Source: Chthonomonas calidirosea T49
Lineage (GTDB): Bacteria > Armatimonadota > Chthonomonadetes > Chthonomonadales > Chthonomonadaceae
DNA length: 64,000 nt
NCBI RefSeq assembly: GCF_000427095.1
Contig: NC_021487.1
Span: forward strand, 496,001 to 560,000
Direction: 5' to 3'
The translations under genes were made by a program, and so were the position numbers. Position 1 is the stretch's first letter. The number at the start of each line of letters is the position of its first letter. Shown here piece after piece: positions 15,927-61,905 of this stretch. The notes under the pieces are model-generated. The model saw only the letters and a list, made by a program, of their open reading frames with translations. It was not told the DNA's origin and did not search any database.

Positions 15927-18740
15927 ATGGAAGCTTGGTATAAAGTTGCCACACCGCGAGAGGAAGTTCGGGAAGGAAGATCCTTCAACCCAGATGAGTT
16001 TGCCATTGCCCTGGAACAGGTCGTGGCCGGCACGGCGCCCGAAGACTATCGGGATCCTGCGCAGTTCTTCGCACGCACCTACTTCACGCGCGCGCTGCGC
16101 GAGCATGTGGGCATGGTCTTGCGCAGGCTATCGGGCCGAACCGACAACACGGCGCCGGTGTTGACCTTGATCACCCAGTTCGGCGGCGGCAAGACCCACA
16201 CGCTAACCACTCTCTACCACCTTGTCACGAGCGGCGAGAGGGCCGCCAGCTACCCAGGGGTTGGTGACCTCTTACGCGAATCGGGCCTCACGTCGGTTCC
16301 GAAGGCGCGAGTGGGCGTCTTCGTGGGAAACGCCTGGGACCCACAGGAAGGCCGGGAGACCCCGTGGATCGACCTTGCCCGCCAGCTCGCGGGCCACAAG
16401 GGCGTCGCAGCGCTTGGGACTTCCGCAAGGACGGTCCCGCCGGGAACCGAATCCCTCGCGCGCGTCTTCCAGGCGGCCGAGGCGCCGGTGCTCATCCTCT
16501 TCGACGAGGTGCTGAACTTCCTCAACCGGCATCGCGGCATGGCGGAAGCCTTCCATGCCTTCATTCAGAATCTCACCGTGGCTATGACGGGAACAACCCA
16601 CGGCGCGGCGGTGATCAGCCTCCCGCGCAGTCAGGTCGAGATGACCGACTGGGACATGCTGTGGCAGGACAGGATCACCAAGGTGGTTCGCCGCGTGTCC
16701 AAAGACCTCATCGTCAACGACGAGACGGCGATCAGCGAGGTCGTCCGGCGGCGGCTCTTCGAGCACCTGGGAAACGAGAACGTGCGGAAGAACGTGGCGA
16801 GGGCCTTCGCCGACTGGTGCTTCGAGCGACGGGCGCAACTCCCGCGGGAGTGGACGGCTGTGGACACCGTGGCGTCGGAAGCCAAGGCGAAGGAGATACT
16901 CCGCGGGCGGTTTGAGGCGTGCTATCCCTTTCACCCTGCCACCCTCTCGGTCTTTCAGCGGAAGTGGCAAGCTCTCCCGCAGTATCAGCAGACGCGTGGA
17001 ACGCTGGCGATGCTGGCTCAGTGGATCGCTTGGGCGTATCGCGACGGCTTCACGACGGCTCGGCGAGAACCGCTGATCACGCTTGGGTCGGCTCCACTTC
17101 ACGACATGGGGTTTCGCAGCACGATCTTCGGTCAACTGGGAGAATCTCGGCTTGCCGCGGCCATCGAGGCGGACATCGCCGGGCAGCATTCGCATGCGCG
17201 GGCGCTAGACGCCGACACGCAAGGGCTGCTGCGCGACATCCACCGCCGGGTGGGAACGGCGATCCTCTTCGAATCCTCAGGCGGGCAGACGGATAAGGTG
17301 GCTCATTTGCCGGAGCTGCGCTTCGCCCTCGGCGAGCCAGGCATTGACACGACGTCTGTGGACAATGCGGCCTTTGCCCTGGAAGCCCAGTCCTACTTCA
17401 TCCGCCGAATGGGCTCGGACGGGTTCAAGATCAGCTACCAGCCCACGCTGAAGAAGGTGGTCAACGACCGGCGCGCCTCTCTGGATGAAGAGGAAGAGAT
17501 CAAACCCGCCATTCGCAAGTTCGTCGAGAGCGAGTTCCGCCGTGGGGCGAGCATTCCCTTGGTTCTATTCCCTCGCGATGGGGCCGAGGTTCCCGACTCA
17601 CCTAGGCTCACGCTTATTGTCACCGATCCGGAGGCGGAGTGGAACGGAAAGAACGCGTTTCGAGAGCAGATCGCCGAATGGACGAAATACAGGGGCAAGC
17701 TGCCGCGCCTCTACCCTGGAGCGCTGGTGTGGTGTATCAAAAAGCCAGGCCGTGAGCTGCGAGAGAGGGTCGAGCTGTGGCTTGCGTGGAAGAAGGTCGC
17801 CCAGGAGTTGGCCAACGGCACGCTTGGCGGGGAGTTCGACCGAGCGGAGCGGGACGATATCCACTTGAAGGTGAAGGATGCCGAAGAGGCCGCCAGGAAC
17901 GAGGTCTGGGGAGGCTATCGGTTCGTAGTGATCGCCGACTACGAGGAGAACGATGGCCTCAAGGTGTTCGACCTCGGATCCGGTTACTCCAGCAACAATG
18001 AGACCTTGTGCAGCCGAGTCATCGACGCCCTCAAGTCGGCTGGGGAGCTCAACTTTTCATTCGAAGCAGGATATCTCGATCGGAAGTGGCCGCCCGCGCT
18101 CAAGGAAGCGGGAGCATGGCCGCTCGCTAGCTTACGGCAGAGCTTCCTCAACGGCTCGCTTACACGCTTGCCCGATCCCGACACGACCCTACGCACGAAG
18201 ATCGTTGAGTTCGTGGAGAGGGGCGACTTCGGCCTCGCTTTTGGGCAGAGACCCGATGGAACCTACGAGCGAGTCTGGTTTCAGGAGCGGATTTCACCCG
18301 ACGAAGTGGCTTTCGAGCCGGATGTGTTCCTCCTCACTAAAACCAAAGCGCAGTCGTTGACGTCGGAGGTTTCGCTAACGGCCTCCCTTGTGCTGGAACC
18401 GCAGGCAGCCCCTCCTAAAGACAGTCTTAAAGACAGTCTTAAAGACAGTCTTACAGACCGTCCAGACGTCAGCATCGCGGCCAAGCCGAGCATGGAGATT
18501 GCCCCGGAGGTTAAGACGAAAACCCTGCGTCTGGTGGGTGCCCTTCCGCCCGAAGTGTGGAGCCGTTTCGGGGTGAAGGTCTTGCCGAAGCTTCAGCCGG
18601 GCTCCGAGCTCAAGCTCCGCATTGACCTCTCCGTAAAGGTCAGCCGCGACCTAGCGGACAGCTTGTTGTCGGAGCTGCGGCAGACCCTCGCCGATCTCGC
18701 CCTGGCGGACACGGTGGAAATCCAAGAGTCTGACCTGTAG
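15927..18740 (+). CDS. DUF499 AAA-type ATPase (defence)
   Basis: A 937-residue P-loop ATPase of the DUF499/COG1483 family that typically accompanies DUF1156 methylases. It has the family N-terminus (EEVREGRSFNPDEFAIAL), Walker A FGGGKTHTL with K89, and Walker B VLILFDEV with D193. The middle part holds family motifs such as RGTLAMLAQWI. The C-terminal third carries a linker of three KDSL repeats, then a domain of about 80 residues. GTG (15924) and ATG (15927) both follow TAGGAGG; ATG has the better spacing. A 162-nt gap from the methylase contains an 8-bp inverted repeat (TTGCGCAG/CTGCGCAA, 15835-15857), so separate control is possible. The mechanism in immunity is unknown to me. Confidence 0.92.
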   Translation: MEAWYKVATPREEVREGRSFNPDEFAIALEQVVAGTAPEDYRDPAQFFARTYFTRALREHVGMVLRRLSGRTDNTAPVLTLITQFGGGKTHTLTTLYHLVTSGERAASYPGVGDLLRESGLTSVPKARVGVFVGNAWDPQEGRETPWIDLARQLAGHKGVAALGTSARTVPPGTESLARVFQAAEAPVLILFDEVLNFLNRHRGMAEAFHAFIQNLTVAMTGTTHGAAVISLPRSQVEMTDWDMLWQDRITKVVRRVSKDLIVNDETAISEVVRRRLFEHLGNENVRKNVARAFADWCFERRAQLPREWTAVDTVASEAKAKEILRGRFEACYPFHPATLSVFQRKWQALPQYQQTRGTLAMLAQWIAWAYRDGFTTARREPLITLGSAPLHDMGFRSTIFGQLGESRLAAAIEADIAGQHSHARALDADTQGLLRDIHRRVGTAILFESSGGQTDKVAHLPELRFALGEPGIDTTSVDNAAFALEAQSYFIRRMGSDGFKISYQPTLKKVVNDRRASLDEEEEIKPAIRKFVESEFRRGASIPLVLFPRDGAEVPDSPRLTLIVTDPEAEWNGKNAFREQIAEWTKYRGKLPRLYPGALVWCIKKPGRELRERVELWLAWKKVAQELANGTLGGEFDRAERDDIHLKVKDAEEAARNEVWGGYRFVVIADYEENDGLKVFDLGSGYSSNNETLCSRVIDALKSAGELNFSFEAGYLDRKWPPALKEAGAWPLASLRQSFLNGSLTRLPDPDTTLRTKIVEFVERGDFGLAFGQRPDGTYERVWFQERISPDEVAFEPDVFLLTKTKAQSLTSEVSLTASLVLEPQAAPPKDSLKDSLKDSLTDRPDVSIAAKPSMEIAPEVKTKTLRLVGALPPEVWSRFGVKVLPKLQPGSELKLRIDLSVKVSRDLADSLLSELRQTLADLALADTVEIQESDL
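18416..18451 (+). repeat. Three perfect 12-bp tandem repeats inside the DUF499 gene
   Basis: The unit TAAAGACAGTCT occurs three times in a row, followed by a degenerate fourth copy. It encodes three KDSL units in a linker after the family core. As 12 is a multiple of 3, gain or loss of a unit keeps the frame. Confidence 0.9.
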
Positions 18741-23801: not shown

Positions 23802-24530
23802 ATGCTTGCTCGCGATACCGCGATCACTTTTCTGGGTCATGCCACGCTGCTCGTGGAAACGCCCGGACATAAACGCCTCCTCATCGATCCCTGGCTTCGC
23901 TCCAATCCCGCTTGCCCCGCCGAGTGGCACTCGCCTAGCCGGCTAGGAAAGCTCGATGCCATCCTGGTTACCCACCTTCACGCAGACCATGTGGCGGATT
24001 TCGAAGAGGTCATCCAGGCGAACCCGGACGCCACGGTGGTGGGCATTATTGAGACCGTACGCTTCTTGACAAAGAAAGGCGCCAAGAAAACCGAGCAGCT
24101 CAATATCGGCGGCAGTATCCTTTTCGATGGAATTCGCATTACCCTTACGCAGGCCGTTCACTCCAACGGTGGAGAAGACGCCCATGGCAACATGGTCTAT
24201 GGAGGCTTCCCAACCGGCTTTATTCTTAAAATGGAGAACGGCTTTACCTTCTATGTCGCCTCGGATACCGGCGTATTTGGAGACATGGCGCTGCTAAAGG
24301 AGATCTATGCGCCCGAGTTGGCTTTCCTGCCTATCGGCGATCGCTTTACGATGGGCCCCTTAGAGGCGGCTCATGCGACCAAACTCCTTGGCGTTCGCCA
24401 TGTCGTCCCCTATCACTACAACTCGATGCCCATGCTTACCGGAACCGTAGAAGAGTTCCAGAAGCATTTGAGAGAGTTGCTTGTTAACGTGAACGTTCAC
24501 ATCCTTCAACCCGGCGAGACCCTTAAATAA
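23802..24530 (+). CDS. UPF0173 metallo-hydrolase (metallo-beta-lactamase fold)
   Basis: A 242-residue member of the UPF0173/YtkL family. It opens with ITFLGHATLLVET and carries the dinuclear metal motif THLHADH near residues 57-63, then a distal His in QAVHSN, an Asp in VASDTGVFGDM, and the closing VVPYHYNSMP. The fold is that of metallo-beta-lactamase-like hydrolases; the natural substrate is unknown. Start from AAGGAG 9 nt upstream. A strong hairpin at 24556-24582 ends the unit, just before the left copy of the direct repeat bracketing the nuclease cassette. Confidence 0.88.
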   Translation: MLARDTAITFLGHATLLVETPGHKRLLIDPWLRSNPACPAEWHSPSRLGKLDAILVTHLHADHVADFEEVIQANPDATVVGIIETVRFLTKKGAKKTEQLNIGGSILFDGIRITLTQAVHSNGGEDAHGNMVYGGFPTGFILKMENGFTFYVASDTGVFGDMALLKEIYAPELAFLPIGDRFTMGPLEAAHATKLLGVRHVVPYHYNSMPMLTGTVEEFQKHLRELLVNVNVHILQPGETLK

Positions 24531-24555
24531 AAAACGACCTCATCGCGATCGACAG

Positions 24556-24582
24556 GCTAGGGGCGCCATCGGCGCCCCTAGC
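24556..24582 (+). terminator. Terminator hairpin after the UPF0173 gene
   Basis: GCTAGGGGCGCC and GGCGCCCCTAGC pair perfectly over 12 bp around a 3-nt loop. The following TTGCCTT is only moderately T-rich. It lies 26 nt after the stop codon. Confidence 0.75.
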
Positions 24583-24592
24583 TTGCCTTCAA

Positions 24593-24607
24593 CGCTTGAC
24601 AATTTGG
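24593..24607 (+). repeat. Left copy of a 15-bp direct repeat (CGCTTGACAATTTGG)
   Basis: Identical to 27025-27039, 2.43 kb away. The two copies bracket the low-GC nuclease/lipoprotein cassette. The right copy contains the working -35 box of the miaA promoter; this left copy has no fitting -10 box. It looks like a duplicated insertion target. Confidence 0.7.
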
Positions 24608-24625
24608 GCGGATACTATCGCTCTA

Positions 24626-24782
24626 TCATTTCGGCTTGTCTTCGTGAAGCAACCAACCGGGCGTAACACCTAACGCCTTTGAGATAGCGAGCGGCTAACG
24701 GTTCCTGCGTCACCGCCGGTTTCGCCGATAGTCTTGCCCGCCGTACTCGTTCCACGATAATGTTGTCCTTGTGGGGCGTCAT
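24626..24782 (-). pseudogene. Frameshifted small helix-turn-helix remnant (XRE-like)
   Basis: Reading leftward from the ATG at 24782, the product runs VERVRRARLSAKPAVTQEPLA. One extra base near 24680-24700 then breaks the frame. In the shifted frame the text continues ISKALGVTPGWLLHEDKPK and stops at 24626. Joined, this is about 51 residues with the look of an XRE helix-turn-helix (TQE-LA, then ALGVTPGWLL). I infer a decayed or frameshifted regulator in the cassette. The rest of the 478-nt gap (24531-25008) shows only the hairpin and direct repeat listed separately. Confidence 0.35.
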
Positions 24783-25008
24783 ACGAAAATACTCCGATTG
24801 ACTGACCGGAGCATTGTACAGGCGCGAAGCCTCTTGGAATATATACACCACACATATTTACAAACATTGGGATTCCGTGTACAATACGAACTGCCAGGCG
24901 TGCATACTCCTTCCCATCGCGAAGGAGAACGGAAGGTAGCAATACGCTCGATCGGCAGAGAACGAAGGGATTAAGCAACAACCAGCAGCACACTGAGGAG
25001 GTTCCGTC

Positions 25009-25656
25009 ATGGCCCGGCGACGAAAACGAAGATACGATGACTCTCAATCTTTGTTGCTGGTTAGGATCTCGTTAGCGTTTATTCTAATGGCCATTTTTTC
25101 ACAACTGGTATTACTTTGGTTATCATCTGAACTGTTCCGTTGTTTTCTGATTTTCGCTGTTTTCGTCGGCCTGCCGGCTCTCTATTTCTTCGTTAAAGTC
25201 TATCCACATTGGGTGCGAATGGAACGCTTGCGGTGTCTGCGTCTGGCCGATGTAGACACTATGTCCGGTCACACATTCGAGCATTATGTTGCGCGGCTGA
25301 TGGAACATCAAGGTTTCAAAACGACCGTTACCAAAGGTTCCGGTGACTTAGGTGTAGATATAATCGCACGCAAGAACGGCGTTAGTTATGCCGTGCAGTG
25401 CAAGCGGTCCAGTGACAATATTCCGAGAAATGCCGTTAGCGACGCTGTAGCCGGGAAACAGCACTACGGTTGTCAGGAAGCAATGGTTGTCACCAACTGG
25501 TATTTTACGTCGGGCGCAAAAGAGTTAGCGCGGTCTACGCATTGCGTACTCGTTGACCGCGAAACGTTAGCCCGATGGATACAAAGCTTTCAACGTCGCA
25601 CCCTGGCAGAAAGTAACCTACAGCAGACCGAGGGAAACGGGAGAATATCACCATGA
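25009..25656 (+). CDS. Membrane-anchored Mrr-type restriction endonuclease
   Basis: A 215-residue protein. Two hydrophobic helices occupy about residues 16-38 and 45-65, and an Mrr_cat (PF04471) nuclease domain fills residues 80-190. It starts with MSGHTFEHYVARLMEHQGF and carries the PD-(D/E)XK-type core: GDLGVDIIA with the catalytic Asp, then YAVQCKR with the Gln-x-Lys of Mrr enzymes. Mrr-like nucleases are type IV restriction enzymes that cut modified DNA; the membrane anchor suggests action at the cell envelope. Start from GAGGAGG. The stop overlaps the lipoprotein start as ATGA. GC is clearly lower than in the flanking genes, a sign of transfer. Confidence 0.82.
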   Translation: MARRRKRRYDDSQSLLLVRISLAFILMAIFSQLVLLWLSSELFRCFLIFAVFVGLPALYFFVKVYPHWVRMERLRCLRLADVDTMSGHTFEHYVARLMEHQGFKTTVTKGSGDLGVDIIARKNGVSYAVQCKRSSDNIPRNAVSDAVAGKQHYGCQEAMVVTNWYFTSGAKELARSTHCVLVDRETLARWIQSFQRRTLAESNLQQTEGNGRISP

Positions 25657-26804
25657 AGGGCCTAAGTAAACAAAGGTTCCTTGTTGGCTGTCTGTTACTG
25701 CCCCTGCTCACATTGACCGGTTGCTTTGGTAGACACGCCACGGTAACCGGAACCTACATGTATAAAACAGACACCGTCTTACGATGCCTCGAACTAACAC
25801 AAGTAGATAAGACGGTCAAGGGTCAAGCGATAGCATTGAAGGCTGCTGTGGATCAACCCGGAGGTATTGAAATCAGCAAAGTCGATATATCCGGCGAAGT
25901 TGACGGTGAAGCGATCCGACTCGGCTTACAGTCTGAAGTGACTTGGCTTCAAGGAACCACACTTACCGGCAAGTGGGGAAATGACCAGATAACTCTTAAC
26001 ATCCCAGACGCTAACGGCACCATAGAACAGCTTCGCTACAAGCGGGTAACGGTCGAAGAGTGGAACGATCAAGTCAGGAAGTTTCGCGACAAATGCGCCC
26101 AACAGGCAGCAGAATGGCAACGGGAACGCGAAATACAGGCGACGATTAAACAGTTACGCGAAGAACAAGACACCATATACACCGACCTTGTTCGCGCATG
26201 GAGATCCTTGGCTGACAACATGAACGGTCTTCACTTTACGCTTCAAGCCTTAGCGATTCAGAACCGCAACATTAAGACCATGGAACGCAGGCTTGAGCGC
26301 GCGAATGCAGCAGCAGACAAAGCGGCAAGAGAGGCTCGGAACGCTTTCGAAATGCATCAAGCCGATCAATTTCGCTTTATGTCTCAAGCCGATCAAGTTC
26401 GCTCTGCCGCCATTGAGATAAACTCCGAATTGGTATCGTTAAAAGGTCAACGTGAGCAAATACAAGCAGCCGTCGACAGTTATACCAACGGTATCTCACA
26501 GAGCAAGCAGGAGATAGCGGAAGATAACGCGAAGCTGAGCAGTATAGCAGAACAACTGCACACGCTTTCACCTGATCACAACGATTCTGGCACGTCAATC
26601 CATTTTTCACTTGGTCAAACGATCAGAAACACACCCTGCTACTCCGCACCGGATGTTAACTCGTCGATTGTAGGAACAGATCCTGCCGGTTGCTATGTGG
26701 CGGTTGTTGGAAAGAATCAGAATTGGTGTTTCGTCATCTCAAGGAACCTTTCAATAATCTACCTTCCTGCTGGTGACGTGAAGATTTTAGACGAACAGCC
26801 ATAG
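25653..26804 (+). CDS. Coiled-coil lipoprotein with C-terminal SH3-like part
   Basis: A 383-residue lipoprotein of no recognised family. The signal peptide ends in a lipobox (LLTLTGC, lipidated Cys at about residue 24). A beta-rich segment follows (to residue 130), then long charged helices with heptad-like spacing (about 135-305, rich in Gln, Glu and Arg), and last a bacterial SH3-like segment (NTPCYSAPDVNSSIVG, then YVAVVGKNQNWCFVI). It should sit in the outer leaflet of the inner membrane or in the outer membrane. It is coupled to the Mrr-type nuclease by the ATGA overlap, which suggests one system. Function unknown; phage-entry sensing is a speculation from context. Confidence 0.68.
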   Translation: MKGLSKQRFLVGCLLLPLLTLTGCFGRHATVTGTYMYKTDTVLRCLELTQVDKTVKGQAIALKAAVDQPGGIEISKVDISGEVDGEAIRLGLQSEVTWLQGTTLTGKWGNDQITLNIPDANGTIEQLRYKRVTVEEWNDQVRKFRDKCAQQAAEWQREREIQATIKQLREEQDTIYTDLVRAWRSLADNMNGLHFTLQALAIQNRNIKTMERRLERANAAADKAAREARNAFEMHQADQFRFMSQADQVRSAAIEINSELVSLKGQREQIQAAVDSYTNGISQSKQEIAEDNAKLSSIAEQLHTLSPDHNDSGTSIHFSLGQTIRNTPCYSAPDVNSSIVGTDPAGCYVAVVGKNQNWCFVISRNLSIIYLPAGDVKILDEQP

Positions 26805-27024
26805 GAGAGAGCCGAAGAGCGCCGGCGAGCCATGAGCGACGCGCCAGCGGAAGACCGCCAGACGAGACAAACCGCGTCAACAGCAGGCAGGATGGAGCCA
26901 GAGCGGGAGAGCCGGAGGGAAAACCGAAAGACGAGCCGCATCAACGTTGATGCTGAGCCGAGCAATCGAAACGACAGCAGTAAAGAGTTGTGACGCGGGA
27001 AAGTCGCACGTGAAAGGTAAGCCC
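26805..27024. other. Purine-rich non-coding stretch with a 16-bp palindrome
   Basis: The 220 nt after the lipoprotein gene are strongly purine-biased on the + strand, with recurring GAG, GAC and GCCG triplets. A perfect 16-bp palindrome, GCATCAACGTTGATGC, lies at 26938-26953. No open frame with a ribosome site is convincing. It ends at the right copy of the direct repeat. Confidence 0.45.
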
Positions 27025-27039
27025 CGCTTGACAATTTGG
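27025..27039 (+). repeat. Right copy of the 15-bp direct repeat (CGCTTGACAATTTGG)
   Basis: Exact copy of 24593-24607. It includes the TTGACA box of the miaA promoter. Together the copies mark the limits of the cassette that holds the HTH remnant, the Mrr-type nuclease and the lipoprotein. Confidence 0.7.
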
Positions 27040-27056
27040 TGCCCCATGGATATACT
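27028..27056 (+). promoter_or_regulatory. Near-consensus promoter of miaA-hfq-dapF
   Basis: TTGACA (27028-27033) and TATACT (27051-27056) are 17 nt apart. The expected start near 27063 leaves a leader of about 38 nt before the miaA ATG. Confidence 0.8.
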
Positions 27057-27100: not shown

Positions 27101-28051
27101 ATGGATCGACCCATTATTGTCATCACAGGCCCCACGGCGGTCGGTAAGACCGATGTGGCCATGGCGCTTGCAGAGCGCGTGGCCGGAGAGATCGTAAATG
27201 CCGACTCGATGCAAGTCTACATTGGCATGGACATCGGTACCGCCAAACCCACCCCCGACCAACGACAGCGGATTCCCTTCCATCTCATAGATATCGTCCC
27301 GCCAGACTACCCTTTTAGCGTTGCCGAATGGAAAGAGCGTGCCCTTGCGGCCATTGCCGATATCACCGCGCGTGGCAAGCAGGCCATCTTATGCGGCGGC
27401 ACGGGGATGTATCTTCGAGCCCTTTTGGAGGATTGGAACCTGGCGGGAACCCCCCGCGATCCGAAGCTTCGAGAACAGCTTCACCATGAGGCGCAACAGC
27501 AGGGGCGAGCTAGCTTACACGCTCGGCTGCAGGAGGTGGATCCGGAAACCGCAGCGCGCCTTCATCCAAACGACCTCGTACGAGTCGTCCGCGCGCTCGA
27601 GGTGTACTACCTAACAGGCAAACCGCTCTCTGAGTGGCAGCGCGTGAACAAAGCGGAGGCCAGACCGCTCCAGGCACGCCAGTTTATCCTTACCATGCCC
27701 CGGCCTCTCCTTTATCAACGCATTGAACAACGCGTGGAGGCCATGCTGGCGGCCGGTTGGGAGGAAGAGGTGCGTCAGCTGCTTGCACAAGGCTACTCCC
27801 CAAACCTTACCTCTATGCAATCGCTAGGGTACCATGAACTTGTATGTTATATAACGGGTAAAATAACGAGGGAGCAAGCCGTAGAACTCATTAAGCAAAA
27901 TACCCGCCGCTTCGCCAAGAGACAGCTGACCTGGTTCCGTGCCGTTCCCTGTGCAGAGTGGCTTTCCATCGAAAATAAGGAGCATGCAGAGGTTGCAGAG
28001 GCCATTATCCAACGTCTAGTCACACAAGACACCACGTGCGCGGTGTGTTAA
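27101..28051 (+). CDS. miaA: tRNA dimethylallyltransferase
   Basis: The 316-residue enzyme adds a dimethylallyl group to A37 of tRNAs that read UNN codons. The P-loop VITGPTAVGKTDVAMALA is near residue 8, followed by NADSMQVYIGMDIGTAKP, the DMAPP/tRNA-binding region GGTGMYLRALLEDW, and the C-terminal TRRFAKRQLTWFR typical of MiaA. The ATG at 27101 starts at the family N-terminus; a TTG start at 27083 is possible, but neither has a good ribosome site. The near-consensus promoter is just upstream. hfq follows after 42 nt, the same order as in many Proteobacteria. Confidence 0.95.
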   Translation: MDRPIIVITGPTAVGKTDVAMALAERVAGEIVNADSMQVYIGMDIGTAKPTPDQRQRIPFHLIDIVPPDYPFSVAEWKERALAAIADITARGKQAILCGGTGMYLRALLEDWNLAGTPRDPKLREQLHHEAQQQGRASLHARLQEVDPETAARLHPNDLVRVVRALEVYYLTGKPLSEWQRVNKAEARPLQARQFILTMPRPLLYQRIEQRVEAMLAAGWEEEVRQLLAQGYSPNLTSMQSLGYHELVCYITGKITREQAVELIKQNTRRFAKRQLTWFRAVPCAEWLSIENKEHAEVAEAIIQRLVTQDTTCAVC

Positions 28052-48948: not shown

Positions 48949-49620
48949 CTAGCACGACTTGAAAGGATCATATACGAGCACTCGACGCCCCTTCACGCAC
49001 AACCATCTCGACGTGCGTATGTCCACAGCCTCCACATAGGCCCGATGCTCTTCGGGTAAAAGCCTCGCGGCCAACGTTTCCGGCGTATCCTCATCGAACA
49101 CCGGTATCGCACGCTGCACGAGGATCGGCCCCGTATCGTAATCATTATCCACAAAATGCACGGTACAACCGGTTACCTTCATACCGCTCTCAATGACGGC
49201 CTCATGAACCCGTCTCCCATACATTCCCTTCCCTCCGAATAGCGGCAATAAGGCCGGATGGATGTTAAGCACGCGGTAGGAATAAGCCGCTACGATCGGC
49301 GCCGGTAGCCGTAGGAGGTAGCCCGCTAAACAGACTAAGTTGATCTCATAGCGGCGCAACAGGCGTAGAAGGGCGTGCGCATACGCTTCTTCTTGCCCCT
49401 CATACTTTTTTGGAGAAACGACATGAACGGCCACTCCGGCCTCGCGCGCTCGTGTCAACGCAGGAGCCTCTGCTCGCGTTCCGATCACAACACGAACTTC
49501 ACCCTTAATCCGCTGCTCCATACAGGCATCTAGCAGCGCTTGCATGTTGCTGCCTCGGGCTTCTCCCGACACGAATACAGCTATCTGTGCCTCTCCCAGA
49601 GGCTCCAAAATCTCAGTCAA
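48949..49620 (-). CDS. purN: Phosphoribosylglycinamide formyltransferase
   Basis: A 223-residue enzyme of purine synthesis that formylates GAR. Motifs: IAVFVSGEARGSNMQALLDAC at the N-terminus (usually SGxGSN), CLAGYLLRLPAPIV, the catalytic NIHPALLPLFGGKGMYG with Asn and His, and HFVDNDYDTGPILVQRAIPV with the catalytic Asp. The insertion EAR in the first glycine loop is unusual. The start at 49620 is TTG; the in-frame alternative ATG would remove the first strand, and GGGGGGAA upstream can serve as ribosome site. First gene of a leftward operon with the OmpH-like, kinase-like and thioesterase genes. Confidence 0.9.
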   Translation of the reverse strand: MTEILEPLGEAQIAVFVSGEARGSNMQALLDACMEQRIKGEVRVVIGTRAEAPALTRAREAGVAVHVVSPKKYEGQEEAYAHALLRLLRRYEINLVCLAGYLLRLPAPIVAAYSYRVLNIHPALLPLFGGKGMYGRRVHEAVIESGMKVTGCTVHFVDNDYDTGPILVQRAIPVFDEDTPETLAARLLPEEHRAYVEAVDIRTSRWLCVKGRRVLVYDPFKSC

Positions 49621-51238: not shown

Positions 51239-52297
51239 ATGGAGAAACGGATTCGAGTTCTTATTGTGGACGATAGCGCGCTTATACGTCTCTTGCTCAC
51301 TAAGCTGCTTACCTCCGACCCACAAATTGAGGTGGTGGGTACCGCCTCAGATCCCCTACAAGCCTCACAGAAAATTGAAGAGCTCTCGCCCGACGTGCTC
51401 ACGCTCGATGTTGAGATGCCTCATATGGATGGGCTAACCTTCCTAGCCGATCTCATGAACCACCATCCATTGCCTGTCGTCATGGTCTCCTCCCTAACCC
51501 AACATGGGTGCGAAACAACGATTAAAGCGCTGGAGCTTGGGGCAGTAGATTTCTTCCCAAAGCCTACTCTACAACAGCTCAACACGTCAAACGACGCCGC
51601 CCTAGAGCTACTTGCAAAAGTGAAGGCTGCCGCCTCTGCTCGCGTTGTTCGCCGATCAGCAAGTAGATCCGAGGCGCTCGTAGCGAAACTAGCGCCTCAG
51701 CAGCTCATGCATCAAGTGATTCTCATCGGCGCTTCCACCGGCGGCACGGAGGCCATACGCGAAATCCTCACCTCACTTCCCCCTAATATTCCCGGCATCG
51801 TCATGGTACAACACATGCCTCCTGGCTTCACGTCCTCCTTCGCACAGCGCCTCGATAAGCTATGCCCCTTCCATGTAAAGGAGGCACAAGATGGCGACAG
51901 AGTTCAACCTGGACTCGCCCTGCTTGCTCCAGGTGACTTTCAAACCACCCTGCATCGTGCCTACACAGGCTATTATGTTCAGGTCCAAAAATCCGAGCCG
52001 GTCAATCGGCATCGGCCTTCCGTAGATGCCCTCTTCAACTCGGCTGCAGATAGCGCCAAGGCCAACGTCATTGCCGTACTGCTTACCGGTATGGGAGAGG
52101 ATGGAGCCCGTGGGCTTTATCAACTACGGCAAGCTGGGGCCCTCACCATCGCTCAAGACGAGGCAACAAGTGTCGTTTTCGGGATGCCGCGAGCGGCCAT
52201 CGCGCTGGGAGCTGCCGAGTTCGTTCTCCCCTTGCCGCGCATCGCGCAAGAGATTGTTCGCCTTCTAGAAAACATGCGGCCCCCCATGAGTGCTTAA
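51239..52297 (+). CDS. cheB: Chemotaxis response regulator protein-glutamate methylesterase
   Basis: A 352-residue CheB. The receiver domain (RVLIVDDSALIRLLL; phosphoacceptor Asp in LTLDVEMPHMDG) is followed by a linker and the methylesterase domain, with the catalytic Ser in IGASTGGTEAIREIL, a His in VMVQHMPPGFT, and an Asp in LLTGMGEDGARGL. All three catalytic residues are present. It should demethylate or deamidate chemoreceptors. No cheA, cheW, cheR or receptor genes are nearby, so it is an orphan here. ATG 51239 follows AGGGGAGG with 10-nt spacing; the frame opens earlier at 51146. Its last four bases overlap the converging TPR gene. Confidence 0.94.
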   Translation: MEKRIRVLIVDDSALIRLLLTKLLTSDPQIEVVGTASDPLQASQKIEELSPDVLTLDVEMPHMDGLTFLADLMNHHPLPVVMVSSLTQHGCETTIKALELGAVDFFPKPTLQQLNTSNDAALELLAKVKAAASARVVRRSASRSEALVAKLAPQQLMHQVILIGASTGGTEAIREILTSLPPNIPGIVMVQHMPPGFTSSFAQRLDKLCPFHVKEAQDGDRVQPGLALLAPGDFQTTLHRAYTGYYVQVQKSEPVNRHRPSVDALFNSAADSAKANVIAVLLTGMGEDGARGLYQLRQAGALTIAQDEATSVVFGMPRAAIALGAAEFVLPLPRIAQEIVRLLENMRPPMSA

Positions 52298-53283
52298 TCC
52301 CTAATAGGTGCCTTATCTGCTCTCTGCGAAAGAACTTGGCATTCCGTGAACATCTTCTGTGCGGCATCCGGCTTATGCATTCGCAAAAACGCGATCCCAA
52401 GTAACCGAGCTACACGCGCGCGAGCTAGAAGATGCTTCTGACTGTAGCCCCCATTCGCATCGGGAACAGCGGTAACATGAAGAGCATTCAACAGAGTCTG
52501 CACGGCCTCACGATTTCTTTGCAACTTCAAGTAGACAGCACCTAGTTCCGCCAACGCAAGAGGATCTTGTGGTTGCAGCGCAGTTGCACGCTGTAGGGCA
52601 TGCAGCGCCTCTAGGCTCTCTGGTCTTCCTGGCTCGTTGTTCAGTGCCCATCCGAGAAGGTACCACGCCCGCGCGTTGTTAGGATCGAGCTGAATACAAC
52701 GTCGTGCCTGCTGCTCTGTAAGACGGACGTCTTGCGCCTGCTGGAAAATGTTGGCTCCATGCAGCCATATTGCTGCATTGGAGGGAGCATAACGCTCCGC
52801 CGTTAGAACTTCTCGGATACAATCCCCAAGATCACCACTTTTACCATAGGCAGCAGAGAGTAGATCATGAGCTGTCCCCGAATGGGGCGATTGGGCCACA
52901 GCTTGTTTCGCGGCCTGTAAGGCGCATTGTCCATCACCTATTGCCAAACAGGCCTCTGCTAAAGTCTGTTGTGCCTCCGGAAACGTGGGATGTTCACTTA
53001 CGAGGCTCTGCAATAGGGGAACGGCCTGTGCGGCATGTCCGGTTTTCGTGTAAAAACGTCCTAGCTGAAAGTAGGTGTAAGGAAAAGAGGGATACTCCAC
53101 CATTAGACGCCGCCAAATGGCAATGGCATCTTCGTAGTCGCCAGTCTCCGCAAGATGAACAGCCTCCATATAGCGCTGCATAAGAAGGGTGGGCTCAGTA
53201 AAGCGCATCCGGAACCAGAGTGCAGCGCCAACAAGAAAAGCTGCGACGATAAGGCCGCCCTTGATCCGAGCCGTAGAGTCCAT
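52294..53283 (-). CDS. Tetratricopeptide-repeat protein with N-terminal membrane helix
   Basis: A 329-residue protein. One membrane helix (GGLIVAAFLVGAALWF) is followed by about seven TPR-like helical hairpins: AETGDYEDAIAIWRRLMVEYPSFPYTYFQLGRFY, then repeats with A at positions 8 and 20 and P at 32, up to the YSQKHLLARARVARLLGIAFLRM segment. Such repeats mediate protein contacts; the partner is not known. It would face the periplasm or the cytoplasm side of the membrane according to the positive-inside rule (few positives before the helix). The small membrane-protein gene on its left end is 10 nt further up the same strand. Confidence 0.75.
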   Translation of the reverse strand: MDSTARIKGGLIVAAFLVGAALWFRMRFTEPTLLMQRYMEAVHLAETGDYEDAIAIWRRLMVEYPSFPYTYFQLGRFYTKTGHAAQAVPLLQSLVSEHPTFPEAQQTLAEACLAIGDGQCALQAAKQAVAQSPHSGTAHDLLSAAYGKSGDLGDCIREVLTAERYAPSNAAIWLHGANIFQQAQDVRLTEQQARRCIQLDPNNARAWYLLGWALNNEPGRPESLEALHALQRATALQPQDPLALAELGAVYLKLQRNREAVQTLLNALHVTAVPDANGGYSQKHLLARARVARLLGIAFLRMHKPDAAQKMFTECQVLSQRADKAPIRD

Positions 53284-53292
53284 TCTTCCTAT

Positions 53293-53481
53293 CTAAGGGG
53301 AAGTTGGATGTTTGATCTCCGAGTGCGCGGCACTAGCCGCGGGCGGCGGAATCTTATAGTCCATCGGCTGCGGCTTTGAGCCGCCTCCTCCTCCAAACAC
53401 CTTGATCCCGATAAGGATCAGGATAACGACGATCACAGCAAATATGATCCCAGCAACAACCGGGTTCACGTTCTGGCGCAT
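53293..53481 (-). CDS. Small single-TM protein with Pro-rich tail
   Basis: A 62-residue protein. The N-terminal helix PVVAGIIFAVIVVILILIGIKVF is followed by GGGGGSKPQP and a Pro/Ala/His-rich tail. A short flexible linker after the helix suggests the tail protrudes from the membrane. The gene ends 9 nt before the TPR gene starts on the same strand, so they are probably read together. No family is recognised. A strong hairpin lies upstream at 53505-53532. Confidence 0.6.
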   Translation of the reverse strand: MRQNVNPVVAGIIFAVIVVILILIGIKVFGGGGGSKPQPMDYKIPPPAASAAHSEIKHPTSP

Positions 53482-53504
53482 TTTTCTTCTCCTAGAGCTA
53501 ATTA

Positions 53505-53532
53505 CATAGGGAGGAATGGAATCCTCCCTATG
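53505..53532 (-). terminator. Terminator of the prepilin-like gene
   Basis: CATAGGGAGGA and TCCTCCCTATG form a perfect 11-bp stem around a 6-nt loop. It begins 15 nt after the prepilin-like stop on the - strand. The trailing sequence on that strand is TAATTAG, so termination by a T-run is weak. Confidence 0.6.
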
Positions 53533-53547
53533 CTTTTAGATCGGCTG

Positions 53548-54348
53548 CTAGTTCGTTGGTTGGCTACAACCTTTGTCGCTGTAGTTCTGGTCGTACACCT
53601 TGGCACTACGAAAGGCTCCGTAGTACAACCCATTTGCAAAACCCTGTCCAGCATCTGGTGCAGGAACACTCAGCACGCCAAACTTCGCGTGGCCGTCGGC
53701 ATAAGCGAAGTTTTGTCCATTGAAATGACGCGGGTTTCGCGAATTCCCCTTGAAGTCGCCATAACCAGCCCATATGGATAGAGGATCCGACCAATCCCAA
53801 TAAAAGGCATACCCTCCTGTACCGTTTGGTTGACAGGTATGCCAATTCCATCCATAACGATCATCGCTAATAATCGCTAAATCAGCTGGGCTTTGAAGAC
53901 GAGCTAAAGTATAAGGTCCTCCCTGATCGTTATTTTCATCGAAAATAAAATCGCTCAAACCATACGTTACACGATAGTTAGGTGGAGTATATCCCCACGT
54001 ACTGAATAGCGTATCGCTATTGCTAGGGCAGCTGAAGAGCTGCTGGTTCTTAATATAGGGCATCAGTAGATCGCTCCACCATACAGTTGGGCAGGGAGCG
54101 TTCGGGTTTGGGGGACATCCTGTGTCTCCAGGGTTTTGATGCCAGGGCAGCTGGAAGAAGGTTTCATCGTAATCTTGCACATACATCATCGTCGCTAGCC
54201 CGATCTGTTTGAGATTTGACAGACATGAGATCGAGCGCGCTTTTTCGCGTGCCTGCGCAAACACCGGAAACAGAATTGCTGCAAGAATCGCTATTATTGC
54301 GATCACAACAAGCAATTCGATCAATGTAAACGCCTTTTTGGTTTTCAT
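53548..54348 (-). CDS. Prepilin-type N-methylation protein with H-X9-DG motif
   Basis: A 266-residue pseudopilin-like protein. The type III leader is [25 protein letters not shown]: cleavage after the Ala, Phe methylated, with the Glu at +5. The segment [21 protein letters not shown] is shared by the DUF1559/H-X9-DG families, and [13 protein letters not shown] gives His, nine residues, then Asp-Gly. These families are much expanded in Armatimonadota and Planctomycetota; the function is surface or secretion related but undefined. ATG 54348 has a better distance to TAGGAGGT than the ATG at 54354. A hairpin follows the stop. It is downstream of the GntR-type gene. Confidence 0.88.
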
Positions 54349-54421
54349 TACCATACCTCCTATAGTGTTTTTGATAGCTCTGTGCGTTGTTGTTTGGCAC
54401 AGACAGTGGTTCGTTCACGCC

Positions 54422-55609
54422 TTATGGCGGAGGCGGAGCCGTCGATTCACGTGTGACGAGGCTACAAGATAGAAAGACTCGATCAGGCTCGGTGAGCTTG
54501 ATCATGCCTTTCGCGTGCATCTCCTGCAGCTTTTTGATCGCCTCTCGTCCCATAGCTTCCAATGGTTGTTTAACGGTCGTTAGCTTAGGTACTGCCTGAG
54601 CCATCGCCGTCGGATCGTCAAACCCAACGATAGAAAGCTGTTCCGGAACACTTATGCCCTCTTCCTGAGCAAGCTCCAGCAAAGTCCGCGCCAAAAAGGG
54701 ACCGGCAGCCAAAAAGGCTGTTGGACGCTCCGGCGCGCTAAGAAGCTCACGCAGCCTGGAGCGGGCAGATTCCGCAATACCCTCTGGAGTTCCAGCGTCT
54801 ATCATCCAATCCGGCCGAAACGGCAAAACCTTTGCTTGTAAGGCGGCCTGAAAACCAAGAATTCGATCTTGGGTGTTGATCGCATTTGGCTCGGCATAAA
54901 CTAAACCAAGCTTGCGGTGCCCTAAACGAAATAGGTAATCCACGGCCATTTCCGCGCCTTCGCGGTTATTACTATCCACACAGGGAAGCGGCACACCCTG
55001 CCAGGATGCTCCAACAACCACCGCTCTTGCTCCCTCTGCAGCAAGAGCATACAGTCCCTCTACGTCCTCCTGGCGCGGCGCTACAATGATCCAACCAGCA
55101 CTATGATCAGCGCGCCAGAAACGCACATAATCCTGCCCACGCACCTGTTGAAGCATCAGGGTTACCTCTAGGGGACTTACCTGACAGCGCATCGCTAACA
55201 GGAGCGCGCAAAGGTACTCGTTGTCAGCAACCATCTCGGTAGGGCCCACCGTTATCACATGATAGATGGTGGACGTTTGACGGCGAGGCCAATCGGAAAC
55301 CCGTTTACGATGCGTACGAACCCCACTAGCAGAAGTGTCCTTCACAAAGGTGCCTCGTCCCACTTCTCGGTAGAAAAGCCCCTCTTCTACTAAAGCCAAG
55401 ATGGCCTTATTCACCGTCATTTTGCTGACTCCCAAACTGCTAGCGATCTCTGTCTCCGCCGGTATTTTGTCACCCGCCTTCCACACCCCACGGTGCACAA
55501 GATCGCGAAGAATCTGCTTTACTTGGAGATGACGCGGCAAAGGCCCGTCTCTCACGACACGCACGGCTCCGAGCTCAACCGTCATTGGCTTTAACAACTG
55601 CGATGACAT
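54422..55609 (-). CDS. GntR/LacI-type hybrid transcription regulator
   Basis: A 395-residue regulator. The N-terminal GntR winged helix spans about residues 20-90 (LPRHLQVKQILRDLVHRGVWKAGDKIPAETEIASSLGVSKMTVNKAI, then the wing GRGTFV). The rest is a LacI-type periplasmic-binding-protein domain (VDSNNREGAEMAVDYLFRLGHRKLGLVYAEP; PTAFLAAG; VPEQLSIVGFDDPTAMAQAVPKLTTVKQP). This layout is AraR-like: DNA binding released by a sugar or nucleoside. It lies just before nagA on the same strand but has its own consensus promoter, so it could control nagA or sugar-uptake genes elsewhere. Confidence 0.9.
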   Translation of the reverse strand: MSSQLLKPMTVELGAVRVVRDGPLPRHLQVKQILRDLVHRGVWKAGDKIPAETEIASSLGVSKMTVNKAILALVEEGLFYREVGRGTFVKDTSASGVRTHRKRVSDWPRRQTSTIYHVITVGPTEMVADNEYLCALLLAMRCQVSPLEVTLMLQQVRGQDYVRFWRADHSAGWIIVAPRQEDVEGLYALAAEGARAVVVGASWQGVPLPCVDSNNREGAEMAVDYLFRLGHRKLGLVYAEPNAINTQDRILGFQAALQAKVLPFRPDWMIDAGTPEGIAESARSRLRELLSAPERPTAFLAAGPFLARTLLELAQEEGISVPEQLSIVGFDDPTAMAQAVPKLTTVKQPLEAMGREAIKKLQEMHAKGMIKLTEPDRVFLSCSLVTRESTAPPPP

Positions 55610-55639
55610 ATTTTCCTAGCTACCTAGTAGTATAGACTC

Positions 55640-55668
55640 ATTATATCACCAATTCCAGATCTTGTCAA
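55640..55668 (-). promoter_or_regulatory. Perfect consensus sigma-70 promoter of the GntR-type gene
   Basis: On the - strand TTGACA (55663-55668), a 17-nt spacer and TATAAT (55640-55645) match consensus at all 12 positions. The start would be near 55633, about 24 nt before the ATG. A short CTAC/GTAG symmetry lies in the leader and could be an operator. Confidence 0.85.
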
Positions 55669-55690
55669 GCGTTTTTCTGAATTTTTTCGC

Positions 55691-56848
55691 TTAATTCTCC
55701 CGTTTATCGTAAACGATACGCCCCCCTACTATCGTCAGGCGTACCGTTCCCTCTTCATCTAAAACCACTAAGTCGGCATCATAGCCAGGGGCGATGCGCC
55801 CCTTTCGATGATTCAACCCCAAAGCGCATAGGGCGTTATAGGATGACATGCAGGTACGTTTCCGTAAGTCATAGTCTCCTGCATTGGAAAATGCGCGATC
55901 GAGGGTCAATAAGCTGCCGGCTAAAGTTCCATCCGGCAAACGCGCTGCACCGCTAGCTACCACCACGGGTAGATCGCCCAAGGAGAAGGTATATCCATCT
56001 GGCATGCCCGCCCCCGGAATACCGTCGGAAATCAGGATAACCCCGTGTGCTCCCTTTGCCTCTATAATAGCTTTACAAACGGCAGGATGCACATGGATGT
56101 TATCCCAAATCAGCTCTGCCACTAACTCTGATCGGGCGAGTGCAGCCCCCAAAACCCCTGGCTCTCGGCTCTCCATACCACGCATTGCATTGCCACAATG
56201 CGTTACATGACGTGCTCCAAATCCAATAGCCCTATCAACTTCCACATAGGTGGCGTTGGTATGCCCAATAGATACAATAACTCCTGCTGTCGCTAAGATA
56301 CTCATCATCTGTTCCGCACCCGGCAACTCCGGCGCCAGCGTCATGATCCGCACCGTTTCCAAATAGGGCCCAGCCCAACGCAAGAAATCACCACCATCTG
56401 GCTCCAAAATGTACGCTTCGGGCTGTGCCCCCTTTTTCTGCGGATTGATATAAGGCCCCTCAAGATGACAACCGAGAATTTGAGCCCCCTCGTAATCCCC
56501 ACTTTGCATTAGACGAGTGACTACCTCTAAAACGGATGCTAAACGATCTCGAGGGCCGGTGATCGTTGTCGGTAAAAAACTAGTCACTCCATGCTGTGCA
56601 AGATGGTACGAAATTTCCTGTATCGCCTCCTCATCTGCCTCCATTACCGAGCGCCCCGCCCCACCATGAACATGGATATCTACAAACCCTGGAACAAGTC
56701 TCCACCTGCGCACATCCAAGTCCCCCGTTTGCGCTGTGGTCGCATTGTTCCAAGTTTCAACCGAACGGATTCGGCCCTCTTCAAGCGATACAAGAGCATT
56801 TTCCCTAAAGGATAGGGCATCCGCAGCTACGCTCGCCAAAATACGCAT
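55691..56848 (-). CDS. nagA: N-acetylglucosamine-6-phosphate deacetylase
   Basis: A 385-residue amidohydrolase that removes the acetyl group from GlcNAc-6-P in amino-sugar use and wall recycling. The metal-site stretch is VPGFVDIHVHGGAGRSVMEA. Further motifs are GCHLEGPYINPQKKGAQ, SIGHTNATYVEVDRAI, RHVTHCGNAMRGM and ILISDGIPGAGMPDG with the catalytic Asp. ATG 56848 follows AGGAGG by 6 nt; the frame is open much further upstream (to 57049), into the divergent riboswitch. A GntR/LacI-type regulator gene lies 81 nt downstream on the same strand. Confidence 0.93.
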   Translation of the reverse strand: MRILASVAADALSFRENALVSLEEGRIRSVETWNNATTAQTGDLDVRRWRLVPGFVDIHVHGGAGRSVMEADEEAIQEISYHLAQHGVTSFLPTTITGPRDRLASVLEVVTRLMQSGDYEGAQILGCHLEGPYINPQKKGAQPEAYILEPDGGDFLRWAGPYLETVRIMTLAPELPGAEQMMSILATAGVIVSIGHTNATYVEVDRAIGFGARHVTHCGNAMRGMESREPGVLGAALARSELVAELIWDNIHVHPAVCKAIIEAKGAHGVILISDGIPGAGMPDGYTFSLGDLPVVVASGAARLPDGTLAGSLLTLDRAFSNAGDYDLRKRTCMSSYNALCALGLNHRKGRIAPGYDADLVVLDEEGTVRLTIVGGRIVYDKREN

Positions 56849-56899
56849 TGTAAACCTCCTGATCGTCTGTAGAGTGGGATAAAACATGGCGAAATTGAC

Positions 56900-56929
56900 T
56901 TGACAAGTGGAACTCAGATTTAGTATACT
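56900..56929 (+). promoter_or_regulatory. Promoter of the M-box operon
   Basis: TTGACA (56900-56905) and TATACT (56924-56929) are 18 nt apart. Transcription would begin near 56936, about 50 nt before the riboswitch aptamer. It diverges from nagA. Confidence 0.8.
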
Positions 56930-56984
56930 TCGTATGAAAATCTGGCGTAGTCTACTTGGCGCGCCGATAATCGAAAAAGGGAAT

Positions 56985-57204
56985 TCACCTCGATAGGTGA
57001 GGCTCCCGCATACATAGATGCCACTGCCCTTTCGTGTCCAGAGACACAAGGAGGGTTTAACAGGTATTCCCGTTTGAAGGGTCTACCTAACGTGGCTGAG
57101 GCTTTAAGCCTCTAGGGTACGCGGTGCCAAATCTTGAGCGAGTGGGTTGTTGTGGACGTTAGCTTCGAGTACAAAGCCCGCCTCTCGCTCAAAAGGCGGG
57201 CTTT
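56985..57204 (+). promoter_or_regulatory. M-box (ykoK) magnesium riboswitch with expression platform
   Basis: The sequence carries the M-box core: ATAGGTGAGGCTCC at 56993-57006, then ATACATAGATGCC, CTGCCC, and TGTCCAGAGACAC with GGAGGGTTTAACAG up to 57063. These match the Mg2+-sensing riboswitch of B. subtilis mgtE in order and spacing. The 3' closing strand TTGAGCGAG (57134-57142) is exactly complementary to CTCGCTCAA (57184-57192) inside the terminator loop, so aptamer closure and antitermination exclude each other. High Mg2+ should fold the aptamer and allow termination; low Mg2+ should permit expression of the NRAMP-type operon. Recognised from memory of the motif; a covariance search was not run. 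Confidence 0.88.
57173..57204 (+). terminator. Riboswitch-controlled intrinsic terminator
   Basis: AAAGCCCGCCT (57173-57183) and AGGCGGGCTTT (57194-57204) form a perfect 11-bp stem with a 10-nt loop, followed by ATTGCG. The loop contains the strand that pairs with the aptamer's 3' closing strand. Confidence 0.85.
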
Positions 57205-60465: not shown

Positions 60466-61905
60466 ATGTCAGAAATCTTTGTAAAAAATCTCAATGCTCT
60501 GGTTGTATCGCAGGTGGTACCCCACAGTCCAGCTGCACAAGTCGGCATTCGTCCGGGCGACCTGCTAAAACGCATCAATGGAAAACAGATACTCGATATT
60601 TTGGATTATCGATTCTACGCTGCAGAGGAACAGCTGCGTCTCACCATCCAACGGAGCGAACATGAACTAGAGTTCGAGCTATACAAAGAGCCTGAAGAGG
60701 ACTTAGGTCTCGAATTTGAGCATGAACTTGGTGATAAGGTGCATACCTGCAAAAACCGCTGCGTCTTCTGCTTCATTCACCAACAACCTAAAGGTATGCG
60801 CCGCTCTCTCTATCTCATGGATGACGATTTTCGACTCTCCTTCATGCATGGCAACTACGTTACCCTAACTAATATCACCACACAGGAGTGGGAACGCATT
60901 CTTGAACAGCGCCTCTCCCCCCTCTATGTCTCCGTCCATGCCACCGATCCCATCCTACGTGGCCGGCTTTTGGGCAGAAAAGAGCCAGCTCCTATTCTGC
61001 CCCAACTACGCATGCTCGCAGATAACCGCATTGATGTCCACGCCCAAATCGTTCTCTGCCCCGATCTTAACGATGGTCCCGCGCTCGATCAGACTCTTGT
61101 TGAACTTGCCGCAGAACATCGTGCTATCACCGGCAAGCGAGCTGGCGTCTGCTCCGTTGCCATTGTGCCTGTAGGGCTTACCCGTTTCCGCACAAAACTT
61201 ACGCCGCTTCGCTGTGCCGATCGAGACTATGCACGTACGCTCATTGCGCAAGTACAACGTCATACACGCCGATTTCGTAAAATGCTAGGAACTCGCTTCG
61301 CATGGCTCGGCGACGAGTGGTACTACGTAGCTCAATATCCCTATCCGGGTCGCGCGCACTATGAAGAGTTTCCTCAACTAGAAGACGGCATCGGCACCAT
61401 GCGCCTCTTCCTCGAAGAACTGCGTCGTATAGCACCACGACTGCCTCGCAAAGCGCCTTACCCAGTTTCCGCTACCCTTGTTACGGCCGAGCTGCCCGCC
61501 GCTCAAATCCAGCAATTGGCCGCTCTATTTAATCGTATTGAGGGAATCGAGCTAAACGTCTGTGTGGTTCAAAACCATTTCTTTGGAGGCAACATACACA
61601 TCGCCGGACTCCTTACAGCACAAGATATTCTTCATCACCTCGCGCAGTTTCCTGACTGCCGTCAAACGGTATTTATTCCGAGTATCTGCCTTCGGGATAA
61701 TACCCTCTTTCTCGATGACCTTACCGTCGCACAGGCACGAGAACTATCGGGCCTCGACCTTCAGATCGTAGGCAACTCGCCACGCGCGCTCGCCTCTGCT
61801 CTAGGTCTGCTTCCTTCCTACTCCGCTTCCCCTAAAACACAGGGATCAGCTTGGGTTGTAAACGAACATCTCGCAGAACACCAGCTGGACGCACAAACCT
61901 CGTGA
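60466..61905 (+). CDS. DUF512 protein: PDZ, radical-SAM-like and DUF512 domains
   Basis: A 479-residue protein of the DUF512 family. An N-terminal PDZ-like part (VVPHSPAAQVGIRPGDLLKRINGK) is followed by the cluster motif CKNRCVFCFIHQQPKGMRRSLYLMDDDFRLSF, a CxxxCxxC of radical-SAM type, and then the DUF512 region (RFAWLGDEWYYVAQYPYPGRAHYEEFPQLEDGIG). The activity is unknown. The family occurs widely in Gram-positive bacteria and thermophiles, often as a single gene. Start ATG 60466 lacks a strong ribosome site, but the family match begins within 10 residues. ppk follows after 71 nt. Confidence 0.88.
   Translation: MSEIFVKNLNALVVSQVVPHSPAAQVGIRPGDLLKRINGKQILDILDYRFYAAEEQLRLTIQRSEHELEFELYKEPEEDLGLEFEHELGDKVHTCKNRCVFCFIHQQPKGMRRSLYLMDDDFRLSFMHGNYVTLTNITTQEWERILEQRLSPLYVSVHATDPILRGRLLGRKEPAPILPQLRMLADNRIDVHAQIVLCPDLNDGPALDQTLVELAAEHRAITGKRAGVCSVAIVPVGLTRFRTKLTPLRCADRDYARTLIAQVQRHTRRFRKMLGTRFAWLGDEWYYVAQYPYPGRAHYEEFPQLEDGIGTMRLFLEELRRIAPRLPRKAPYPVSATLVTAELPAAQIQQLAALFNRIEGIELNVCVVQNHFFGGNIHIAGLLTAQDILHHLAQFPDCRQTVFIPSICLRDNTLFLDDLTVAQARELSGLDLQIVGNSPRALASALGLLPSYSASPKTQGSAWVVNEHLAEHQLDAQTS

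Follow-up and report, generated by a model that had tools for sequence, protein, structure and literature searches.

A nuclease-lipoprotein cassette between direct repeats in the miaA promoter region of Chthonomonas calidirosea T49

How did a membrane-anchored nuclease and a lipoprotein come to lie between a hydrolase gene and miaA in the hot-soil bacterium Chthonomonas calidirosea T49, and in what form did they arrive? We analyzed a stretch of 64,000 nucleotides (bases 496001-560000 of the genome, henceforth the window, to whose first base all positions refer). A prior reading of the letters alone (the sequence-only reading) had proposed that a mobile or recombined cassette, bracketed by a direct repeat, was inserted in front of miaA and left the miaA promoter working. 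We assessed this proposal by comparing the site with related genomes and by searching the cassette for signs of mobility.

Gene order and repeats at the miaA locus

The resident neighbors are both encoded on the forward strand: a UPF0173-type metallo-beta-lactamase-fold hydrolase gene on the left (23802-24530; PF12706, E 6e-23) and miaA on the right (27104-28051; PF01715, E 5e-95). The hydrolase gene is followed by a perfect GC-rich inverted repeat of 15 pairs (24553-24585, forward strand), a resident hairpin that is terminator-like and without a T-run (fold z -4.6 for 24531-24610). The bracketing 15-bp direct repeat, CGCTTGACAATTTGG, is exact in both of the copies first reported (24593-24607 and 27025-27039, forward strand). 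The identity extends by 0 bases on either side, and a search of the whole closed genome (3,437,861 bp) returned no third exact copy.

The right copy, a proposed attR or right target duplicate, carries the -35 box of the miaA promoter, as the sequence-only reading had stated. This promoter, TTGACA-17-TATACT (27028-27056, forward strand), matches the consensus at 11 of 12 positions and is the top promoter match of the region. The left copy, a proposed attL or left target duplicate, lies 62 bp past the UPF0173 gene and has TTGACA with no -10 box at 16-18 bp, which is expected for a promoter half severed from its other half.

By itself the repeat is weak evidence, because arithmetic predicts about 0.3 exact 15-mer pairs at most 5 kb apart per 64-kb window, and because the window holds a second non-tandem exact 15-bp direct pair (GCCTCTGCTCGCGTT, 49466-49480 and 51632-51646, 2.2 kb apart). 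That second pair is probably due to chance, given that its right copy lies within an ORF. The repeat is informative through its placement: when the 200 bp from the UPF0173 stop and the 300 bp before the miaA start were dinucleotide-shuffled, the two flanks shared a word of at least 15 bp in 1 of 5,000 shuffles, a figure that is somewhat generous because 6 of the 15 repeat bases are -35 consensus. Elsewhere in the window, a short tandem repeat with the 12-base unit TAAAGACAGTCT occupies 18416-18453.

The uninterrupted site in related genomes

The UPF0173 gene and miaA are directly adjacent, with no cassette and with gaps of 31-163 bp, in nine relatives (G001, G003, G005, G007, G008, G011, G013 and G014 of the same family, and G030 of the same order). 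The search of the phylum recovered no relative with the cassette genes between UPF0173 and miaA. The two patterns named beforehand as arguing against an insertion were not seen: no cassette-free relative showed a doubled promoter half, and the cassette was not conserved at this place across the phylum.

The most similar UPF0173 (53%) and miaA (59%) genes of all relatives are those of G010. Its UPF0173 stop is followed by 31 bp and a single TTGAAC-17-TATACT, and the contig ends 73 bp past UPF0173; its miaA starts right at the edge of a different contig. Because the genes lie at the ends of separate contigs, their adjacency in G010 is consistent with the uninterrupted order rather than proof of it. 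Subtracting the insert from the window reproduces the G010 layout of UPF0173, a short spacer and one promoter. In G015, miaA lies at a different place behind the promoter CAACGCTTGACAA...TATACT, also with 17-bp spacing, and 13 bases of CAACGCTTGACAA are identical to the left flank plus repeat of the window. The spacing of 17 and the -10 box are thus common to the window, G010 and G015, and an alignment of the joined empty site with the DNA of these two relatives showed a conserved promoter layout and no overall sequence conservation.

Since relatives lack the cassette at this site, the nuclease is absent from all other family genomes searched and the lipoprotein has its only full-length relative in G004 at another place, sequence comparison lends good support to a lineage-specific insertion before miaA that preserved the promoter sequence. 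This part of the sequence-only reading was borne out, both by the uninterrupted arrangement in relatives and by the intact promoter sequence at the right copy.

Contents of the cassette

The cassette spans 24608-27024 (2417 bp). Its left part, about 400 bp between the left repeat and the nuclease gene, contains on the reverse strand a stretch in two reading frames (24629-24785) that might be a decayed XRE/repressor-like gene. This weak assignment comes from reading the sequence. The stretch had been called a frameshifted HTH remnant; the two short frames are present, but the repressor identity did not hold up, as both frames read together gave only chance-level matches to PHROG repressors (E 0.13-0.18). 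Downstream lies a likely promoter of the gene pair, TTTACA-17-TACAAT (24857-24885, forward strand; 10 of 12 consensus positions).

The first gene of the pair (25009-25656, forward strand) encodes a membrane-anchored Mrr-type nuclease of 215 aa, in agreement with the initial description. The gene is intact and its domain complete: PF04471 (Mrr_cat) matches with E 1.4e-30 and 106 bits against a cut-off of 21, over profile positions 2-115 of 115. Two N-terminal TM helices precede the Mrr_cat domain, in which a D...QxK motif was identified by reading. The predicted structure contains two long N-terminal helices with pLDDT of about 90, and the single-sequence model is poor beyond the TM helices.

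The second gene (25653-26804, forward strand) starts within the nuclease stop (ATGA) and encodes a lipoprotein of 383 aa with the lipobox LTGC, so the coupling noted earlier is real. The lipobox is followed by an eight-strand beta domain, a long helical hairpin and an SH3b-like C-terminus. The PF08239 SH3 match is weak (13.5 bits, cut-off 27), and the C-terminus resembles SH3b-NlpC/P60 proteins of relatives. Fold comparison pointed to coiled coils and lipocalin-like barrels at low TM-scores, and the matches to ZorA, JetC and LmuB reflect coiled-coil similarity. A 27-bp near-repeat within the helical hairpin (26352-26403; MHQADQFRF / MSQADQVRS) is a small internal duplication.

The right end (26805-27024) is purine-rich and holds no recognized gene or RNA. 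An RNA at this end (group II intron, retron or other), suggested by a domain-V-like string, was rejected for want of an Rfam match to it at E ≤ 5; the only matches were chance microRNA matches on hairpins, and folding was weak (z -1.7).

The cassette had been described as having lower GC than its neighbors throughout. This is true of the two genes (48.8% versus 55.4 ± 3.7% for 43 window ORFs) but not of the final 220 bp, whose GC is 61%. Nor is low GC peculiar to the cassette, because several ORFs at 52294-57049 and 60466-61905 have third-position GC equal to or lower than that of the cassette.

Relatives of the two proteins

The phylum search, which covered 16 further genomes of the family, detected no relative of the nuclease in them; other families of the phylum yielded distant relatives only (best 39% identity). 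Relatives were found in 272 plasmid records and 11 phage records. In a small hand-inspected sample of 4 phage records and 8 plasmids, an integrase lay within 4 kb of the nuclease in all four annotated phage records, one of which has a transcriptional regulator and one an XRE-type gene beside the nuclease; a tyrosine recombinase adjoined the nuclease on two of the plasmids and on none of the other six. Among viral contigs, no relative of the nuclease or lipoprotein was confirmed. The plasmid and phage proteins are membrane-anchored Mrr-type "restriction endonucleases" (COG1787-like, PF04471) that share the two TM helices and the Mrr_cat domain of the cassette nuclease; those from Priestia, Brevibacillus and Paenibacillus plasmids align with it along most of its length at about 30-34% identity. 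They differ in that the cassette nuclease is coupled to a lipoprotein and these records have no such lipoprotein.

The lipoprotein has a single full-length relative among 291 phylum genomes, a protein of G004 that is 43% identical. Its gene (L122:5938-7071) stands alone elsewhere, adjoined by neither the nuclease nor miaA, and is flanked only by short, chance-level direct pairs. Scanning genome contigs for the lipoprotein recovered the G004 record only. The lipoprotein is an orphan family, present here in just two Chthonomonadaceae genomes.

Tests for mobility

Neither the cassette nor its ends have another copy in the genome, and no cassette or same-ended element was found at other sites in the 291 phylum genomes (one sample per species). 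We detected no recombinase or integrase ORF or domain within 24608-27024 and no transposase domain in the cassette. The terminal inverted-repeat score was no better than that of shuffles (p 0.90). An insertion sequence or transposon was rejected on the last two counts. Judged as an integrative element, the cassette has an empty site in relatives and terminal direct repeats, and it has neither its own integrase nor a related same-ended element elsewhere; lacking an integrase gene, it was not filed as an intact element. The suggested search for the cassette at further sites returned none, and of the proposed "mobile or recombined cassette" the insertion is well supported and the mobility is not.

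Origin of the cassette

The evidence for and against is finely balanced for the reading that we nevertheless consider the best, in which the cassette is a decayed integrated element flanked by att sites, with an intact cargo operon left. It is favored by the repeat length, 15 bp being common for an attachment core, and by the integrases and tyrosine recombinases close to nuclease relatives on the four phage records and two of the plasmids. Counted against it are the missing recombinase, inverted ends and second copy, the weakness of the HTH remnant, and the six inspected plasmids that lack a recombinase beside the nuclease.

Ancestrally, one miaA promoter would have followed UPF0173 after a short spacer, an order still seen in relatives, and the uninterrupted site would have read UPF0173-CGCTTGACAATTTGG-TGCCCCATGGATATACT-miaA, with one repeat copy. 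In the lineage leading to the T49 genome, a foreign element would have entered the miaA promoter, leaving 15 identical bases that include the -35 box on both sides, so that the right copy and the old -10 box together make up a whole miaA promoter. Most likely, a tyrosine or serine recombinase would have integrated the element, phage-like or otherwise integrative, at a specific site, making the repeats attL and attR. Later losses would have taken the recombinase and the bulk of the element and spared the cargo operon, which is intact. We infer the recombinase-mediated entry, the loss of the recombinase and the defense function of the cargo alike. An attachment core and a target duplication predict the same copy numbers, one before insertion and two after, and so are not separable here.

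Remnants of prophages or integrative elements with attL and attR resemble the cassette in having a flanking direct repeat, a resident gene that stays functional via one copy, and a cargo nuclease whose type also neighbors integrases on phages and plasmids. The cassette differs in that it is only 2.4 kb long, occurs once, and lacks a recombinase as well as structural and transfer genes. Islands are also known to integrate at tRNA-modification genes, at the 5' end of dusA and the 3' end of trmE (PMC4482086, PMC8409611). There too the target adjoins a tRNA-modification gene that stays usable, as at miaA; this is a likeness only, since the site here is the miaA promoter, outside the coding region, and integrases of those families are absent.

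A rather less probable account, though one to be taken seriously, is capture without a site-specific recombinase, in which template switching or a staggered break let in a foreign fragment and the target was duplicated when about 15 nt were filled in. Such capture would need no recombinase, terminal inverted repeats or second copy, and both repeat copies fit the expected resident promoter. We placed it second because a profile search found no Ku gene in the genome; moreover, repair less often produces an exact 15-bp duplication than attachment cores have this length, and the relatives of the nuclease accompany integrases.

It is unlikely that the insertion is genuine and the repeat coincidental, a second TTGACA-containing stretch happening to match near the left boundary. 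The -35 consensus bases make such matches cheaper than random ones, the window has its comparable unrelated 15-mer pair, and CTTGACAATTTG-like strings with two mismatches occur at other places in the genome. Nevertheless, a match of 15 bp is rarely reached by the shuffled flanks, the left copy is no promoter on its own, and it sits near the position of the miaA promoter in relatives (31 bp past UPF0173 in G010, against 62 bp here). An ancestral block between UPF0173 and miaA, with later loss in the relatives, is extremely improbable despite the lipoprotein relative in same-family G004, as it requires many independent losses, the G004 gene lies elsewhere without nuclease or miaA, and the nuclease was found in none of the other family genomes searched.

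Possible function of the gene pair

That the nuclease domain is complete and its frame intact, while the left end of the cassette seems decayed, suggests that selection may have maintained the pair. The cargo nuclease would be anchored in the cytoplasmic membrane with its domain facing inward and attack incoming DNA, with the co-expressed envelope lipoprotein as its partner; a membrane nuclease and an envelope lipoprotein would be well placed to act on entering DNA. The nuclease matches ZorD of Zorya (E 1e-21) and the PADLOC candidate PDC-S02 (E 5e-15), a likeness confined to the nuclease domain, as the cassette has no helicase, ZorA or ZorB. No Zorya type I gene set (ZorA, ZorB, ZorC/ZorD) adjoins the nuclease, the ZorD nuclease domain being the sole match. 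PADLOC includes the nuclease domain but not the nuclease-lipoprotein pair. There is a very slim chance that the pair is an undescribed two-gene envelope defense unit whose spread, as a small cassette without a recombinase of its own, relies on resident recombinases and takes a promoter half as attachment site.

The locus is a clear example of a promoter that an insertion has split and yet left whole, the -35 half having been carried in or copied, and relatives show the site uninterrupted. The pairing of this lipoprotein family with a nuclease is a small lead for envelope-located defense. The event is ordinary in kind, part of ordinary genome turnover, and the orphan lipoprotein is its sole unusual part. 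When four C. calidirosea isolates were compared, the few features that varied included restriction genes and mobile elements; two putatively transferred regions, of which region A comprises CCALI_00447-00449, occurred in only some of the isolates (PMC4959169).

An integrase might also have acted from outside the cassette: the genome has three tyrosine-recombinase genes and one resolvase. About 61 kb to the left of the cassette (L125, G000:C1:459212-459682), a 347-aa tyrosine recombinase follows an ABC transporter permease and is itself followed by a 163-aa, excisionase-like HTH protein. This recombinase is outside the two stronger Xer-like matches and is possibly a mobile-element recombinase of the genome.
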